Shown here: piece after piece, positions 11,046 to 40,419 of the stretch
How positions within the stretch are numbered: position 1 is the first letter of the stretch
Layout: the number at the start of each line of letters is the position of its first letter
Assembly: GCF_001887355.1 (NCBI RefSeq)
Contig: NZ_MPIN01000004.1
Coordinates: forward strand, 248,001-312,000
Length of the DNA: 64,000 nucleotides
Reading direction: 5' to 3'
Origin: Cystobacter ferrugineus
GTDB taxonomy: Bacteria; Myxococcota; Myxococcia; Myxococcales; Myxococcaceae
Translations under genes and position numbers: made by a program
Notes under the pieces: generated by a model
Seen by the model: only the letters and a program-made list of their open reading frames with translations
Database searches by the model: none
What the model was told of the DNA's origin: nothing

Positions 11046-11510
11046 ATGAGCAACACCGTTGGCGTGAACAAGATGTCCGTGGTGACCAAGGACAGCAACG
11101 GAACCACGGTGGCCTTTCCGGACGTGTGCAAGACGCCCAGCCCCGCGGGACCCATTCCCATTCCCTATCCCAACATCGCCCGCTCCGCGGATACGGCGCA
11201 GGGCAGCAGTACGGTGCAGGTAGAGGGCAACCCCGTGTGCCTGAAGGACTCCCACTTCAGTACCAGCACCGGGGACGAGGCCGGCACGGCGGGTGGCGTG
11301 GTCTCCGGCAAGACAAAGGGCAAGGCGGAGTTCGTCAACTACTCCTTCGACGTCAAGATCGAGGGAAAGAACGTGGCGCGCGCCTTTGACCTCATGCTCC
11401 ACAACGACAAGAACACCCCGCCCTTTCCCCTGATCCAACCTCCCGTGGTGGCCATGGGGAAGCCCGTAGGGGACCTGTGCTGCCTCGCGTGCAAGGACAA
11501 GGTGAAGTAG
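11046..11510 (+). CDS. PAAR-like protein (DUF4150)
   Basis: A 154-residue protein with the DUF4150 hallmarks: MSNTVGVNKMSVV, FPDVCKTPSPAGPIPIPYPN, then SSTVQVEGNPVCLKDSHFST, and a cysteine-bearing end (LCCLACKDKVK). In this family the domain forms the conical tip on the VgrG spike of the type VI machine and either carries a toxin domain or binds a separate effector. Here no toxin is fused; the next gene, 25 bases on, encodes the nuclease. The ribosome site GGAGGT precedes the ATG. The histidine of DSHFST is a plausible metal ligand. Confidence 0.9.
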   Translation: MSNTVGVNKMSVVTKDSNGTTVAFPDVCKTPSPAGPIPIPYPNIARSADTAQGSSTVQVEGNPVCLKDSHFSTSTGDEAGTAGGVVSGKTKGKAEFVNYSFDVKIEGKNVARAFDLMLHNDKNTPPFPLIQPPVVAMGKPVGDLCCLACKDKVK

Positions 11511-11535
11511 CCGGATCGGGGCTGGGAGGAACACC

Positions 11536-12417
11536 ATGGCAACGGACGAACACGTCACCAACCCGGATGGGACCAGTCCTCACGTGGCGGTGAAGGAGAA
11601 CACAGAGGGTGGAGCGTGCCTGACCGGACATGACTCGACCCTGTCCCAAAACTCCTGCGCCTACCGCTGGCAGGCGCTCACGGAGTCGAAGAAGAACCGG
11701 ACGAGCCTGTACAACAAGACCCCCACCGCAGGAGCTTTGCTGAAGCCGGCTTCCCCGGGATTTCTAGCCACGTCGGCCTACCTGAGCAAACGGGGTAACC
11801 TCCATCCGAGCGAATACAGCACCCACATCCGCCTTCCGCAAGATGGGGACTGGCATCTGGATGGCCCCCTGCGCGACGACATGAAGGATGCCGCGGAAAA
11901 AGACATTCCCCGCGGGCAAAATTTCACGAAACACACCTGGCCGTACTGGCACAACTCCCACCACCTCATTCCCAAGGGGCTCTTCAACGAGACCATCGCG
12001 AAGATCGAGGACGCGGACTGCCAGACATTGCTGCGACTGGCGCTCCTGCGCGCTGAATACAACATCAATCACCACATCAACGTCATCATCCTTCCCCAGG
12101 ACATGGAAGTCGCACGCGTGCTGGGACTGCCCCGCCACCTCATCCTCGAGGATGGCTCCTGGATGGTCGAGAAAAGCCCCAAGTTCGACCACATGGCGTA
12201 CAATTTGAATGTCGAGGATCGGCTCAAACCAATCATCGACGAATACAAAGACGCTTGCGACAAAGAACTTCGAAAAAAATGCGACACATCGAAATTCAAA
12301 CTCTCCAAGAGGAAACTCGAGCGACTCTCTCGTATTTGCTATAAAAGCGTTACTGACCACGGAGCAGCCAATCCTGGCTCCCCCATCTCTGACATGCCTC
12401 CGCTTCCCACCAAGTAA
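11536..12417 (+). CDS. AHH-nuclease toxin, predicted type VI effector
   Basis: A 293-residue protein with an HNH/AHH-type nuclease core: NSHHLIPKGLF (S141-H142-H143), AEYNINHHINVIILPQ (N177, H179, H180) and a further histidine at about 219 (FDHMAYN). AHH domains are toxin modules of polymorphic and type VI systems that cut nucleic acid. Residues 1-90 show no known fold and may contact the PAAR-like protein encoded just upstream. The last third is lysine-rich and the DNA there is AT-rich (22 G+C in the 60 bases from 12241 by hand count) against the GC-rich 5' part, as expected of a transferred toxin module. The Imm11 gene follows 89 bases later. Confidence 0.85.
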   Translation: MATDEHVTNPDGTSPHVAVKENTEGGACLTGHDSTLSQNSCAYRWQALTESKKNRTSLYNKTPTAGALLKPASPGFLATSAYLSKRGNLHPSEYSTHIRLPQDGDWHLDGPLRDDMKDAAEKDIPRGQNFTKHTWPYWHNSHHLIPKGLFNETIAKIEDADCQTLLRLALLRAEYNINHHINVIILPQDMEVARVLGLPRHLILEDGSWMVEKSPKFDHMAYNLNVEDRLKPIIDEYKDACDKELRKKCDTSKFKLSKRKLERLSRICYKSVTDHGAANPGSPISDMPPLPTK

Positions 12418-35331: not shown

Positions 35332-35453
35332 GGCGCGCGGGCACGCGCCTTCCCCGCCTGCTCTCCCCGCGGGCGCACGGCCCGTTGTCTCCTCCGCGCC
35401 ATGCGCCCACCGTGTTCAATCCTCACCTTTGGATGACAACGGAGGTGATCGAC

Positions 35454-35618
35454 ATGGCAGGCGTTCGCGCATCCAAGGCCAAGAAGATGCAGGCCGAGGC
35501 ATCCCAGGTGTCGGACCGCTCGCGCAAGGGGCGCAACAAGGTGCCCAAGGTGCCTCGGGCCGACAAGAAGAAGGGCAGTGAGTCCCGGGGACGTGGGGGC
35601 CAGCCCCCGAGGGGGTAG
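35454..35618 (+). CDS. Small basic hypothetical protein (54 residues)
   Basis: ATG 35454 is preceded by GGAGGTGATC, a near-perfect anti-16S match, 6 bases upstream, which is unusually strong for this window. The peptide is very basic (lysine clusters ASKAKKMQ, RSRKGRNKVPKVPRADKKKG) and should be disordered, with nucleic-acid binding possible. The last 14 codons overlap a GC hairpin (GGGGG-CCAG-CCCCC, 35595-35608). No family recognised. Confidence 0.55.
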   Translation: MAGVRASKAKKMQAEASQVSDRSRKGRNKVPKVPRADKKKGSESRGRGGQPPRG

Positions 35619-35640
35619 GCCCCATCCGCTCCGCCTCGCG

Positions 35641-35702
35641 GAGTGGCTCGTCCACGAAGAAGAAGCGACGACGTCCGGCGCGATGGAGTTCCGTGGCCAC
35701 CC
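35641..35702. repeat. Direct repeat, left copy, bordering the NTPase-TPR module
   Basis: 62 bases matching 40358-40419 in the same orientation at 58 of 62 positions. It begins GAGTGGCTCGTCCACGAAGA. The surrounding sequences do not match. It stands 134 bases before the NTPase gene. On the minus strand both copies could encode a HRAGRRRF-x-FVDEPL-like peptide, so an origin as a gene fragment is possible. Confidence 0.85.
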
Positions 35703-35835
35703 GGCTCCATCCGCCTGGGCGTCCGAGCCGAGGACTTCCGGACGTCACGAGGACAGCGTCAGTCATCGGACTCCGGAACGATACGCCCCTCGGCGTGCTC
35801 GCCCGGTCCGGGGGCAGGTGATAGAAGCCGACGTC

Positions 35836-37200
35836 ATGTCACGCCGCGACCTCTGGCGAAAACTCTACGAGCGATTCGACCCGGAGTTGCCCGCTCCAAT
35901 TGAGTGGCGGGCTCCCCGTCCGCACAGTCCAGCGAAGAAGATGCTGGAGACGTTGGATCGACCCTTCGGCACGCCGCGCATCCTGCTGATGGGAACGGTG
36001 GGCACGGGGAAGACGACGGAGTTGATGCGTGTCGCCGAGGAGCGCGAACAACGCGAGCTGGTCGTCTTCCTGGACCTTGAGCAACACTTCACCAACGTGG
36101 TGAAGGATCTCAACGCGCTCTACCGCATCCAGGCGTGGGAGGTGTGCTTCCTCGCGGGGCTTGCGCTGGTGTTCCGATTCAAGGAGCGGTTGGGAACCGA
36201 GCTGGACCCGGAGATGGTGAAGCAACTCGGCCAAGCTTGGCAGGGGCTGGCCGAAGCCACCAAGACACCCGCCCCCCAACTCGACCTGGGCTCGTTCGCG
36301 AAGGAGGCCCTGGACCTGGGGGCGACCCTCGCTAGCACGGGAGCGCTGGGCCCAGAGGCCGCCGGAGCCGCTCTGGCGCTCAAGGGAGCCAAGACCGTGA
36401 TGGGCTCCCTGCGCTCCTGGAACCTGCCGCTGGGACGCAGTGAGAAGGCAGTACCCGACCAGGATCGGCAGGTGCAGGAACTGCTCGGTGCCGTCAACCT
36501 GCTGTTGGGTGAGGTGCAGCAGAAACACCGCAAGGTGCTGCTCGTCATCGATGGCTTGGATCGGATCCGGGATCTGCCTCGCGCCAAGGCACTCTTCGTC
36601 GAGTCGCAGCTCCTCTCCCAGCTCAGCTGCCCCCTGGTGGTATGTGGCCCCTTCGCGCTCCGCCACGACGTCGCCACGGCTGGAGTGCGCGGCTTCAAGG
36701 CCAACGCACTGGTGAACGAGCCCGTACTGAACCATGACGACCCGAGCCAACCCGGGGACGGGGTGGGCTTCTTCCTCAAGCTGTACACGCAGCGAGTGAA
36801 CGACCTGGGGAAAGAGGCCCTCGAACTGGTGAGCCCAGAGTTGCTAGGTGAGCTCGCCTACCGCTCGGGCGGGAGGGCCAGAGACTTCGTCCGGTTCATC
36901 CGCTCCCTATCCGAGGTGGCGTGGGACCAGGATGCTCCTGCCGCCACACCGGAACTGGTGAAGCAGATATTGGATGAGTGGCGATTGAGACAGGAGACAG
37001 GACTGAACACGGACCACATCCGGCTCCTGCAAGAAGTCATGAAGGATCCAGAGCACCGGCTACCTCCAGGAGAGCTGGCGCATGAGCTGCTCGACTACCA
37101 ACACCTGCTGCCCTACCCCAACGACTCTGAATGGTACTACCCCCATCCGCTCTTGACGATGCATCTGGTTCGGCAACCCCCGGCTGGCTCCGCAGACTGA
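35836..37200 (+). CDS. P-loop NTPase, first gene of a two-gene NTPase/TPR module
   Basis: A 454-residue soluble ATPase. Walker A is GTVGTGKT (53-60), Walker B is LLVIDGLD (D239-D242), and the helical C-terminal part ends YYPHPLLTMHLVR. The middle (about 140-185) carries two alanine/glycine-rich weakly hydrophobic helices (LGATLASTGALGPEAAGAAL). It resembles STAND/KAP-like regulatory ATPases more than AAA unfoldases; exact clade unknown. ATG 35836 is chosen because protein-like sequence begins there. The next gene starts 70 bases before this stop in another frame, implying strong coupling. DNA composition is normal for the genome (39 G+C of 60 from 36121). Confidence 0.8.
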   Translation: MSRRDLWRKLYERFDPELPAPIEWRAPRPHSPAKKMLETLDRPFGTPRILLMGTVGTGKTTELMRVAEEREQRELVVFLDLEQHFTNVVKDLNALYRIQAWEVCFLAGLALVFRFKERLGTELDPEMVKQLGQAWQGLAEATKTPAPQLDLGSFAKEALDLGATLASTGALGPEAAGAALALKGAKTVMGSLRSWNLPLGRSEKAVPDQDRQVQELLGAVNLLLGEVQQKHRKVLLVIDGLDRIRDLPRAKALFVESQLLSQLSCPLVVCGPFALRHDVATAGVRGFKANALVNEPVLNHDDPSQPGDGVGFFLKLYTQRVNDLGKEALELVSPELLGELAYRSGGRARDFVRFIRSLSEVAWDQDAPAATPELVKQILDEWRLRQETGLNTDHIRLLQEVMKDPEHRLPPGELAHELLDYQHLLPYPNDSEWYYPHPLLTMHLVRQPPAGSAD

Positions 37201-39986
37201 GGGTCTCGCTCGGGCTGTCTCGCGCCGGGTTGCTGGTGCTGGTGGACCACGCCCGCCCCGAGCGACTGGGGGAGTTGGTGCGGGCATTGCTCCCCATCGC
37301 CCCGGAGCTGGAAGTCCACACCAAGGCCCAGCAGCTCGTGGAGACCTGTCCCGGCTCGACGCTGGTGCTGATTCCGCGCGCGGAGGACGCTGACTGGCTG
37401 AACCTCAACCGGCCCCTCTTCTCCTCGCGTGCGCTACGCGTGGTGCTGTTCTGCACGCGTGAGGTGTCCGTGGCACTGTCACGAGGCGCCGTGGACTTCC
37501 TCGACTGGGTCTCGCTCCGGCTGGAGTGTCCCGCAGGGCCGCCCCCATATGCGGTGGCGGGACTCCGCCGTGCACTGGCAGCCCGGGTACCCGGCATCGT
37601 CTGGACAGGAGGCGACCTGGAAGCGAGCTTCGCGGCGGCGAGGCCACACCGGGTGCTACGGAAGATCAGTGCGGCGCTGCCGTACTCGGAACTCGTCGCA
37701 GAGGCCAGGGCTGGTAGCCCTAGTGAGTGGCTCGCGTGGACGGATGTGGATGGAGACTTTCGACTCCGGCGGGTACGCTGGGCGCTGGCCGAGGCGAGGC
37801 GTCGGACACGAACGCTCCTGGTCAAACCGGCTGTGCAATCCCCGGGTTGGTGGGAGGTCCATGGCCAGGTCGCAGAGCCAGGAGAAGCCTACGAGGGATT
37901 GAGGAGAGCCGGAGCCAAGCAACCGGGCCGACTCGCTGCGCTGGTGGACTTGGAGCCCGAAGCCATCCAATTGATAGGCAGGCTCCTGAAACAAGGTGTC
38001 GACGAGCGCTCCTTGGAGGAGGAAATCTTAAAAAAGACAGATCCAGGAGCGCTCATTGGGAAGCTGGCCATTGAGCAAGCCTTCATAAAAGACAAACAGC
38101 TAGTCAGGGGAAGCGCACCTCCACCTTCGATGCGAGCATTGGGATTGGATCTCGGCCAAATGCGGTCACTCCAACGGGCCGAGATCGAAACCATTGAACA
38201 TCGATTGAGCAATGGAGAACAGATCAACGCCGAGGATGCTGGGTGGTGGTGCGCATGGACCAGCGCACTTGCAAATCCCAATTGGCTGAAGAACTTCGAA
38301 GAACGAGGCGAAGCCGCAGAAGTGATACTTCGGCATCTGCCGCGAATGGGTTTGGCGTGGAAAGCCGTGACCTCCATTGCCCTTTCCACAGGCGACATAG
38401 AGACGGCTCAAGCCTGGGCTGAATATGCGGTGAATGACGATCCAACAGATTGGAAACTACTCGTCAGAGTGCTTGGCGCACAGGGGAAATTCAGTGAGGT
38501 CGAATCACTGCTTCGTCATCAACTTACCGATCATGAGCAGGAAGCCGACACGACTCGTTCGTGGATTCTTCATGAACTAGGCCATGCTCTCTACCAACAA
38601 GGCCGCTACAAGGACGCAGAGGAATATCTACGCCAAACTCTTGCGCTCATGGAACAGACAGTTGGCACGCAGCAAATAGACTACAGCGCCGCACTCAACC
38701 TATTGGCCATGGTACTCGAAAAACAAGGCCAACACGCCGAGTCCGAAAACCTGCTGCGCAGGTCTCTTGCTGTAAGCGAGAAGATATTCGGCACACAACA
38801 TCCCGACCATGGTACGGCTCTTCACGGACTGGCCATCTCACTAGGCAAACAGGGCCGCTACGCCGAGGCAGAAAACCTGCTGCGGCAATCTCTCAATATT
38901 GACGAGCAATCTCTCGGCACTCACCATCCTAATTATCGCGCATCACTTCACGAACTGGCTGGCGTGCTAGAAAGACAGGGCCGCTATACCGAAGCAGAGG
39001 AGCTACTGCGCAGGTCGCTCAGCCTGAACAAGCCACCCACAAACAACGCCCCTCATATCCCTGCATCTCTTCATTCCCTGGCTGTCGTTCTCGCAAAACA
39101 GGGCCGCTACAATGAGGCTGAGACTCTACTACGCCAATCCCTCACACTGTCAGAACAATCACTTGGAACACAACATCCAAATTATGGCGCTTCGCTCCGT
39201 GAACTAGCTGTCGTGATAGAGCAACAGGGGCGGACTGCGGAGGCAGAGGACTTGTTGCGTCAATCGCTCAGTATCCTAGAGAAGTCACTTGGCTCTCAGC
39301 ACTCCGACTATGCCGCTGCGCTTCACGAACTGGCCGTAGTACTCGAGCAACAGGGACGTTACCCTGAAGCAGAAAAGCTACTGCGACAAACCCTTACGAT
39401 TATCGGCCGCACACTTGGTCCAAAACACCCATTTTATGGCTCCGCCCTTCACACTTTATCCTCGCTCCTTGTAAAACAAGGTCTCTATTCCGAAGCGGAA
39501 GAACTGTTGAAACAATCTCTTGAAATCAAGCAGCAAGCTCTCGGCATCGAACATCCTGACTATGCCGCTTCGCTCAGCCAAATGGCCATGGTAATCGGAA
39601 GCCAAGGCCGTTACAGTGAAGCAGAGAAACTTCTGCGCCAATCTCTTATGATCGATGAACAGGCGCTAGGCCCTCGGCATCCCCAGCTCTGCGCTCCGCT
39701 AGCGAACCTTGGTTTCAACCTGACGCTGCAGGGGCGTCCACAGGAAGGGGAACCGTTCCTGTTGCGTTCCGTGGACATCGCTCAAGAAGCCTGGGGGTTA
39801 CACCACTTTGAGACTGCACAAGGACTCAACTTGCTGGCACGAACCCAGGCCGCATTGAAGAAGCCCGAAGCCGTCACGACAGCCCGACAGGCCATGGAGG
39901 CTCTGCGCCATACATTGGGAGAAGAGCACCCCATCACGAAGAATGCACTCCCTGCACTGCGCCGTATCATCGCGGACGGCGAATGA
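37131..39986 (+). CDS. Alpha/beta-domain-TPR protein, second gene of the NTPase/TPR module
   Basis: A 951-residue soluble protein. Residues about 20-190 form an alpha/beta region (GLLVLVDHARPERLGELVRA; TLVLIPRAED; LRVVLFCTREVSVALSRGAV; GIVWTGGDLEASF) I cannot place. A linker domain (190-470) follows, then about ten 42-residue kinesin-light-chain-type TPRs (480-945; consensus LHxLAxxLxxQGRYxEAExL, LRQSL, SLGxxHPxY). The DNA changes from GC-rich to AT-rich near 37960, inside the gene: 29 G+C of 60 from 38881 and 26 of 60 from 39481. The gene overlaps the NTPase gene by 70 bases. Splitting NTPase and TPR over two genes, which STAND proteins fuse, suggests a ligand-sensing partner for the ATPase. 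Confidence 0.82.
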   Translation: MVLPPSALDDASGSATPGWLRRLRVSLGLSRAGLLVLVDHARPERLGELVRALLPIAPELEVHTKAQQLVETCPGSTLVLIPRAEDADWLNLNRPLFSSRALRVVLFCTREVSVALSRGAVDFLDWVSLRLECPAGPPPYAVAGLRRALAARVPGIVWTGGDLEASFAAARPHRVLRKISAALPYSELVAEARAGSPSEWLAWTDVDGDFRLRRVRWALAEARRRTRTLLVKPAVQSPGWWEVHGQVAEPGEAYEGLRRAGAKQPGRLAALVDLEPEAIQLIGRLLKQGVDERSLEEEILKKTDPGALIGKLAIEQAFIKDKQLVRGSAPPPSMRALGLDLGQMRSLQRAEIETIEHRLSNGEQINAEDAGWWCAWTSALANPNWLKNFEERGEAAEVILRHLPRMGLAWKAVTSIALSTGDIETAQAWAEYAVNDDPTDWKLLVRVLGAQGKFSEVESLLRHQLTDHEQEADTTRSWILHELGHALYQQGRYKDAEEYLRQTLALMEQTVGTQQIDYSAALNLLAMVLEKQGQHAESENLLRRSLAVSEKIFGTQHPDHGTALHGLAISLGKQGRYAEAENLLRQSLNIDEQSLGTHHPNYRASLHELAGVLERQGRYTEAEELLRRSLSLNKPPTNNAPHIPASLHSLAVVLAKQGRYNEAETLLRQSLTLSEQSLGTQHPNYGASLRELAVVIEQQGRTAEAEDLLRQSLSILEKSLGSQHSDYAAALHELAVVLEQQGRYPEAEKLLRQTLTIIGRTLGPKHPFYGSALHTLSSLLVKQGLYSEAEELLKQSLEIKQQALGIEHPDYAASLSQMAMVIGSQGRYSEAEKLLRQSLMIDEQALGPRHPQLCAPLANLGFNLTLQGRPQEGEPFLLRSVDIAQEAWGLHHFETAQGLNLLARTQAALKKPEAVTTARQAMEALRHTLGEEHPITKNALPALRRIIADGE
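38565..39960 (+). repeat. Array of about ten 42-codon TPR units within the TPR gene
   Basis: The protein repeats every 42 residues (one unit 41) from ILHELGHALYQQGRY to the C-terminus. Key constant positions are QGRY, AE, LLRQSL, LG and HP. At DNA level the units use different synonymous codons, so they are old or were acquired as a set and are not freshly duplicated. Confidence 0.85.
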
Positions 39987-40029
39987 GCCAGTTCTCGACG
40001 CCGACAGTGCGACTCACTCGCTCGAAGGG

Positions 40030-40355
40030 GCCAAGGGGGCCTCCCCCCCTCCTTCTTGTTGAAGACCCGCTTGAGCAAGGCGCATGCACCCACGGCGAGC
40101 AGGACGATGGCGTTCTTGCCGGCCACGAACACGCCCAGGATGACATTCCAGCGCTTGGCGAAGAAGCCCACCTTCACCAGCTTGGCGGCCCCCACGCCTA
40201 CGAGCACTGAGTCGGCGAGGCCATATTCGGCCATTTTGGCGGTGCCATCCTGGAGGTTCTCGTAGCGCGCGCCCGGGTTGAATCGGTGTTCGCGAGCAGC
40301 TTCGACACGTGCGGCTTGCTGTCCTCGATGCCAGCCGGATCCACCACGAGCTTTG
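40030..40355 (-). pseudogene. 5'-truncated, frameshifted DUF2167 gene (C-terminal remnant)
   Basis: The minus strand reads VVDPAGIEDSKPHVSKLLAN, T, then after a frame change FNPGARYENLQDGTAKMAEY, GLADSVLVGVGAAKLVKVGF and a hydrophobic tail to LLKRVFNKKEGG, the C-terminal end of DUF2167 membrane proteins. The frame is restored by adding one T near 40282 (GATTC for GATTTC). The whole N-terminal part is absent, cut off at the right-hand direct repeat. The original stop is lost and reading runs into antisense of the TPR gene. The rest of 39987-40712 holds the repeat and the promoter region below. Confidence 0.78.
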
Positions 40356-40357
40356 TG

Positions 40358-40419
40358 GAGTGGCTCGTCCACGAAGAGGAAGCGACGACGTCCGGCGCGA
40401 TGGAACTCCGTGTCCACCC
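40358..40419. repeat. Direct repeat, right copy, bordering the NTPase-TPR module
   Basis: Same orientation as 35641-35702, with 4 mismatches in 62 bases. Recombination between the copies would remove 4717 bases including both module genes and the DUF2167 remnant. It abuts the broken end of the DUF2167 remnant. Confidence 0.85.

Follow-up and report, generated by a model that had tools for sequence, protein, structure and literature searches.

Can a STAND-type switch be divided between two proteins, and what would such a divided machine do? The question is raised by two adjoining genes in the window analysed here, a stretch of 64,000 nucleotides from Cystobacter ferrugineus (NZ_MPIN01000004.1, 248,001 to 312,000, forward strand; host genome 12.05 Mb, high GC), which a first-pass annotation had read as a candidate undescribed conflict system consisting of a P-loop NTPase and a TPR-bearing partner. 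The upstream gene has the following features:

35836..37200, + strand: gene 1, catalytic STAND/AAA+-type NTPase of 454 aa (homologue-common start, predicted model, weak AAA_16 match)
35992..36018, + strand: Walker A GTVGTGKTT, NTPase residues 53-61 (G56, G58 and K59 invariant in 30 homologues)
36535..36564, + strand: Walker B VLLVIDGLDR, residues 234-243 (D239 invariant; G240, L241 and D242 conserved in at least 90% of a 30-member alignment)
36793..36894, + strand: R320 and the SGGRARDFVR motif (residues 344-353), candidate arginine-finger/sensor-2 region (conservation)

The reading frame of gene 1 is open from 35578, but the start lies further in: close homologues all begin at the equivalent of ATG 35836, with the common start MSRRDxW. 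The left of two direct repeats described below therefore lies in upstream non-coding DNA. Walker A is accompanied by a Walker B, VLLVIDGLD, that matches the STAND signature hhhhD-G-hD. R320, S344, G345 and G346 are invariant in the 30-member alignment, and the region around R320 and SGGRARDFVR may supply the arginine finger or sensor 2. The AlphaFold model (pLDDT 85, pTM 0.83), compared over residues 1-454 with VIA, has an Orc/NLR-type AAA+ core with a helical lid and a predicted winged-helix-like C-terminus. Its matches include Drosophila ORC (Z 16.2), archaeal Orc1/Cdc6 (Z ~15), the NRC4 resistosome (Z 14.8), SSO1545 (Z 14.4) and CED-4 (Z 13.8), with TnsC loaders and Orc/Cdc6 among the strong ones; on this predicted fold the gene 1 product is an Orc/STAND-type AAA+ NTPase. 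Pfam matches to AAA_16, NACHT and nSTAND_NTPase5 all fall below the gathering score, the weak AAA_16 match recurring in 27/30 family members. The NTPase had no match in the PADLOC scan, and PDB sequence searches returned nothing significant.

The downstream gene starts inside gene 1, in a different frame:

37131..37200, + strand: overlap of the two genes, 70 bases (ORF coordinates; overlaps in homologous loci)
37131..39986, + strand: gene 2, 951-aa partner with a putative dead AAA+-like N-terminus and a TPR array (ORF, Pfam, predicted model)
37170..37538, + strand: lobe 1, residues 14-136, predicted AAA+-like fold lacking Walker A and B (AlphaFold, VIA, 31-member conservation)
37539..37916, + strand: lobe 2, approximately residues 137-262, tentatively a second degenerate AAA+-like lobe (p97-type alignments)
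38565..39950, + strand: eleven 42-aa kinesin-light-chain-type TPR units from residue 479, with low GC3 (Pfam, repeat reading)

Most of what the annotation had said of this part of the locus was borne out, namely the two plus-strand genes with their 70-base overlap, the 951-residue length of the second protein and its roughly ten kinesin-light-chain-type TPRs, which Pfam identifies as TPR_12 (1.6e-98) with TPR_10 in 10 stretches. The AT-rich character of the repeats is likewise real, third-position GC falling from 0.79 in the NTPase and 0.74 in the partner N-terminal domain to 0.53 in the TPR part. The N-terminal domain had been called unplaced; it indeed has no Pfam family match, but its predicted fold can be placed as AAA+-like. 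The AlphaFold model of this domain (pLDDT 91.5, pTM 0.87) aligns over residues 14-136 with AAA+ cores at Z ~10 (rmsd 2.8, ~116 residues). VIA alignments to D1+D2 of p97-type double-ring ATPases cover residues 14-246 across both AAA+ domains, suggesting two tandem lobes, of which the second is a probable, still tentative, degenerate AAA+-like lobe. Walker A is absent from all 31/31 partner N-terminal domains, and N91, R94 and D122 of lobe 1 are invariant in the same 31/31. The partner N-terminus is thus probably a dead AAA+-like NTPase, perhaps two in tandem; profile-profile comparison with hhalign detected no sequence link among the lobes or between the lobes and the NTPase, and the assignment is made from the predicted fold. 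A metabolic enzyme, the identity that would have counted against a conflict module, was rejected, given the empty Pfam result, weak Foldseek rows (none with E <0.001) and VIA matches that favour AAA+. No recognised effector domain was found in either protein of the window pair; for the partner, PADLOC returned a generic TPR and a TPR-region PrimPol match only.

The overlap probably reflects translational coupling, and its length is itself a recurrent trait: several homologous loci share the value of 70 nt to the base, most of the remaining close loci have 49-88 and distant ones 4 nt. In 27/27 named homologous loci with sequence beyond the NTPase, the partner gene comes directly after it in the same orientation, the two overlapping by at most 88 nt or lying no more than ~40 nt apart. 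In a second locus set, 28/38 downstream ORFs match the lobe-1 profile at E <= 1e-3, six of the 28 having also belonged to the profile training set. Pairwise-identity matrices of the NTPase and of lobe 1 are strongly correlated (r = 0.93; 0/5000 permutations). The NTPase and the dead domain are thus a constant core whose two parts vary together, and the rest of the partner is swapped. Adjacency, overlap, congruent divergence, folds and swappable C-termini together lend good support to the earlier proposal of a STAND machine split over two chains.

Homologous pairs are scattered through Myxococcota, Chloroflexota and Cyanobacteria at unrelated loci, with Archangium and Hyalangium the nearest named relatives of the window pair. 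Profile searches in the window's own phylum found the NTPase in 16/195 genomes and the partner N-terminal domain in 11/195. In the phylum sampled by way of L053, 31/284 genomes have matches at E <= 1e-20, with as many as five copies in one genome; in the phylum of an Anaerolineae member 11/301 do. Some of the weaker matches are partial. The genes flanking the pair of a congeneric genome (G001), those flanking a second pair in the same genome and those flanking pairs in other genera are all unrelated to the window's. The pair is therefore real, strongly coupled, patchily distributed and recurrent across social and filamentous bacteria, and it is not housekeeping; patchy presence and differing positions were the outcome of a test of this last point set beforehand.

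Scanning the relatives with Pfam revealed what is exchanged behind the constant partner N-terminus. The C-termini comprise KLC-TPR; other TPR; NACHT; NNH3 with pentapeptide repeats; metallophosphoesterase with AAA_16 and TPR; NACHT with metallophosphoesterase; TPR with protein kinase and FGE-sulfatase; TPR with sigma-70 region 4; and nSTAND1-WD40. One partner (L166:4128-7664) combines NACHT and TPR with cNMP-binding and guanylate cyclase domains and may give the family a cyclic-nucleotide output. On Nostoc plasmids the gene after the NTPase encodes a single protein that combines lobe 1, TPR-like sequence, a P-loop and WD40 repeats. A Calothrix plasmid (L192:5848-13119) carries an NTPase, then an NTPase-TIR fusion (TIR_2 1.5e-33), then a protein with two copies of lobe 1 and nSTAND1, so that the number of NTPases in this row equals the number of dead adaptor domains. 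On the plasmid of Nostoc C057 (L190:6318-9242), a SAV_2336_NTERM protein (1e-161) ends in a homologue of the NTPase; next to it stands a MoxR-type ATPase, and genes for an XcyI restriction endonuclease and an FGE-like protein lie nearby. Conflict biology is indicated most clearly by the TIR and MoxR contexts, ordinary signalling by those with kinase, cyclase or sigma modules.

Comparison with sister species at the same locus disclosed exchange on a finer scale. G003 holds the pair at the same place, its NTPase and N-terminal DNA ~80-97% identical to the window. Residues ~300-525 of its partner reach only 49-68% against the best match anywhere in the window partner, and the last ~130 residues are back up to 74-84%. 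This divergent middle between conserved ends shows that the TPR array has been replaced, with exact breakpoints that are uncertain owing to repeat register. The dN/dS ratio is below 1 throughout (about 0.1-0.4), indicating purifying selection. Positive selection on the TPRs was accordingly rejected: dS in the array is saturated or register-confused, and the divergence resembles array replacement. The G003 NTPase has become a pseudogene: 8 nt are duplicated after the start, and a TGG codon has turned into the stop TAG. In G002, whose flanks are 95% identical, the pair is absent; the apparent last few codons are kept, which suggests that it was lost there by deletion.

On balance, we regard the pair as a split STAND-type switch whose sensor is exchangeable and whose role is probably in conflict, a reading that we hold with modest preference. 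Gene 1 would provide the ATP-binding and hydrolysing module. Gene 2 would join it through the N-terminal dead AAA+-like domain, with N91, R94 and D122 as candidate interface residues, and its TPR superhelix would act as the sensor, the part found on the NTPase's own chain in ordinary STAND proteins. A ligand caught by the TPRs may change the partner's grip on the NTPase, leading to nucleotide exchange, a mixed oligomer and an output. The fused TIR, NACHT, nSTAND1, kinase, cyclase, phosphoesterase or sigma-like module of relatives would serve as this output or as a second stage; with no output module recognisable in the window pair, the response here may run through the oligomer itself or through an unlinked protein. 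The exchange of sensors, the scattered occurrence and the decay all suggest that the system is accessory and serves conflict or self/non-self recognition. Weighing against this are the lack of a recognised effector in the window pair, the ordinary signalling modules of some partners and the dN/dS values below 1.

The surroundings of the pairs bear on that last step. The annotation had proposed scoring enrichment near defence genes, and no defence-island signal was seen: in PADLOC scans of genes within ~10 kb of eight pairs and of eight random stretches, a small sample, the pairs showed no defence enrichment, and the main flank matches (PD-T4-6 and kinase models) were at least as frequent in the random controls. 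This lowers, without abolishing, the likelihood of a defence role, which the TIR and MoxR/SAV_2336 fusions of relatives make plausible. Phage or viral origin was rejected, as tblastn against 50,697 phage records gave no match and viral contigs contained no relative. The same split switch could instead serve ordinary intracellular signalling or regulation in development, stress or predation, its TPRs recognising a protein or peptide of the cell itself, in the manner of MalT- or AfsR-like STAND regulators. The empty flanks and phage searches are in keeping with this alternative, as are the relatives with protein kinase, guanylate cyclase with cNMP-binding, or sigma-70 region 4. We nevertheless judge it unlikely, if worth serious weight, in view of the patchy presence, the loss and pseudogene in sister species, the replaced sensor array, the TIR and MoxR/SAV_2336 fusions and the NACHT and nSTAND1 partners.

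A more sceptical account is suggested by the wider locus, which has these features:

35416..39963 (right end approximate), + strand: segment missing from the otherwise collinear G002 locus (locus alignment)
35433..35618, + strand: small basic 61-aa ORF upstream of the NTPase, of doubtful relevance (G003 comparison)
35633..35702, no strand assigned: left copy of the direct repeat, upstream of the NTPase and shared with G003 (repeat search)
40350..40419, no strand assigned: direct repeat, right copy, beside a DUF2167 remnant, in the window only (repeat search)

The broken neighbour genes of the first-pass annotation are real. A C-terminal DUF2167 remnant (Pfam; minus strand, ~40063-40290) is joined to the right repeat; downstream, at this position, G002 and G003 instead carry a transposase-like gene, and the upstream neighbour gene in the window is eroded relative to both. 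The pair might thus be a passive or decaying accessory cassette, once in a mobile segment and now lacking a selected function here. The G003 pseudogene, the G002 absence, these broken neighbours and the adjoining transposase-like genes all fit such a history. We consider it improbable nonetheless: neither window gene is broken and all catalytic motifs are present, the dN/dS values given above indicate purifying selection, and a second intact pair, 57% identical, stands elsewhere in the same genome. Least probable is an AAA+ of chaperone or loader type, assembling or remodelling client complexes bound to the TPRs with no threshold-triggered effector response, since the strong Orc/Cdc6 and TnsC matches and the use of TPRs as client adaptors that would recommend it are offset by equally close NLR/CED-4 switch ATPases and by TIR, NACHT and nSTAND1 fusions typical of switches.

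The split switch has a published counterpart, and 'undescribed' was too strong a word for it. nSTAND2 (Kaur, Iyer, Burroughs and Aravind 2021, PMC8195603, Fig. 6C) is a predicted mobile two-gene operon of an active and a motif-eroded STAND protein with a predicted counter-invader role; the eroded protein carries variable modules, most commonly, though not universally, GT4 or a HEPN RNase, and an arginine finger is conserved in both proteins (PMC8195603). It is the closest published description of the window pair and follows the same working logic, the comparison being with the published description: the pair is not filed as nSTAND2 and has no nSTAND2-named Pfam match. Shared traits are the two-gene operon, the missing Walker A of the partner domains and the variable modules on the eroded protein. 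R320 (NTPase) and R94 (partner) are invariant here and might correspond to the arginine fingers. nSTAND2 has a STAND module in each protein; for the partner here such a module is suggested by the predicted AAA+-like structure, with hhalign negative. Neither GT4 nor HEPN was found among more than 30 partners scanned with Pfam, which instead carry TPR, NACHT, nSTAND1-WD40, kinase, cyclase and phosphoesterase modules.

Classical STAND/NLR proteins (NACHT, AP-ATPase, NPHP3- and MalT-type) resemble the pair in combining a STAND/AAA+ NTPase with a superstructure-forming repeat sensor and in their CED-4/NRC4 fold; they differ in placing NTPase and repeats on one chain, whereas the window pair would use two chains bridged by a dead domain. 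Inactive STAND domains also serve as a constant component of the iSTAND MoxR-vWA ternary systems (Kaur et al. 2020, PMC7159879). The likeness lies in this use of a dead STAND domain and in the Nostoc C057 fusion to SAV_2336_NTERM; a reading of the flank ORFs turned up neither MoxR nor vWA next to the window pair, and MoxR was seen only with the C057 homologue. Plant NLRs, too, can work in pairs, divided into a sensor partner and an executor partner. This is an analogy only, as the pairs are not homologous and there is no evidence for shared ancestry of the pairing.

A broader reading of the split switch, possible but put forward tentatively, is that the two-gene superfamily of multicellular bacteria amounts to a two-chain NLR. 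The constant parts would be an ATPase and the dead AAA+ adaptor on which it docks; the adaptor chain would take up sensors and outputs like cassettes, recombination at a fixed locus would exchange the sensor arrays, and every copy of the adaptor would bring in its own ATPase, as the two-to-two Calothrix row suggests. If true, NLR/STAND logic, an ATPase plus a repeat sensor, would be divisible between two proteins through a dead ATPase adaptor, and bacteria would have an unchanging engine into which different sensors and outputs can be plugged. PADLOC lacks the family and no Pfam model matched the adaptor domain, so the pair would escape current defence surveys. Replacement of the TPR array between sister species at one locus offers a direct handle on what the sensors recognise.

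Two candidate components of the locus were set aside. The annotation had placed the unit between direct repeats. The repeats themselves are real: the copies are 90% identical (94% over 63 bp), and the 12-Mb genome holds only two strong copies (E 5e-30 and 6e-21; next 0.009), which therefore are not due to chance. They do not mark the unit ends. The G002 and G003 junctions lie elsewhere, the G002 gap running from 35416 to ~39963, and relatives have no copy or one, G003 only the left; their role as mobile-element ends was rejected. The 61-aa upstream ORF was likewise rejected as a third component, since among the loci compared only G003 has it (92%) and other pairs do without.

Elsewhere in the same genome, the second intact pair (L028:6727-10514; NTPase 57% identical) has its own TPR partner and lies near P450 and MarR-like genes. 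At 11046-12417 of the window, an ORF resembling a DUF4150/PAAR-like protein is followed by a possible effector gene, as read by eye, suggesting a type VI secretion cargo region.
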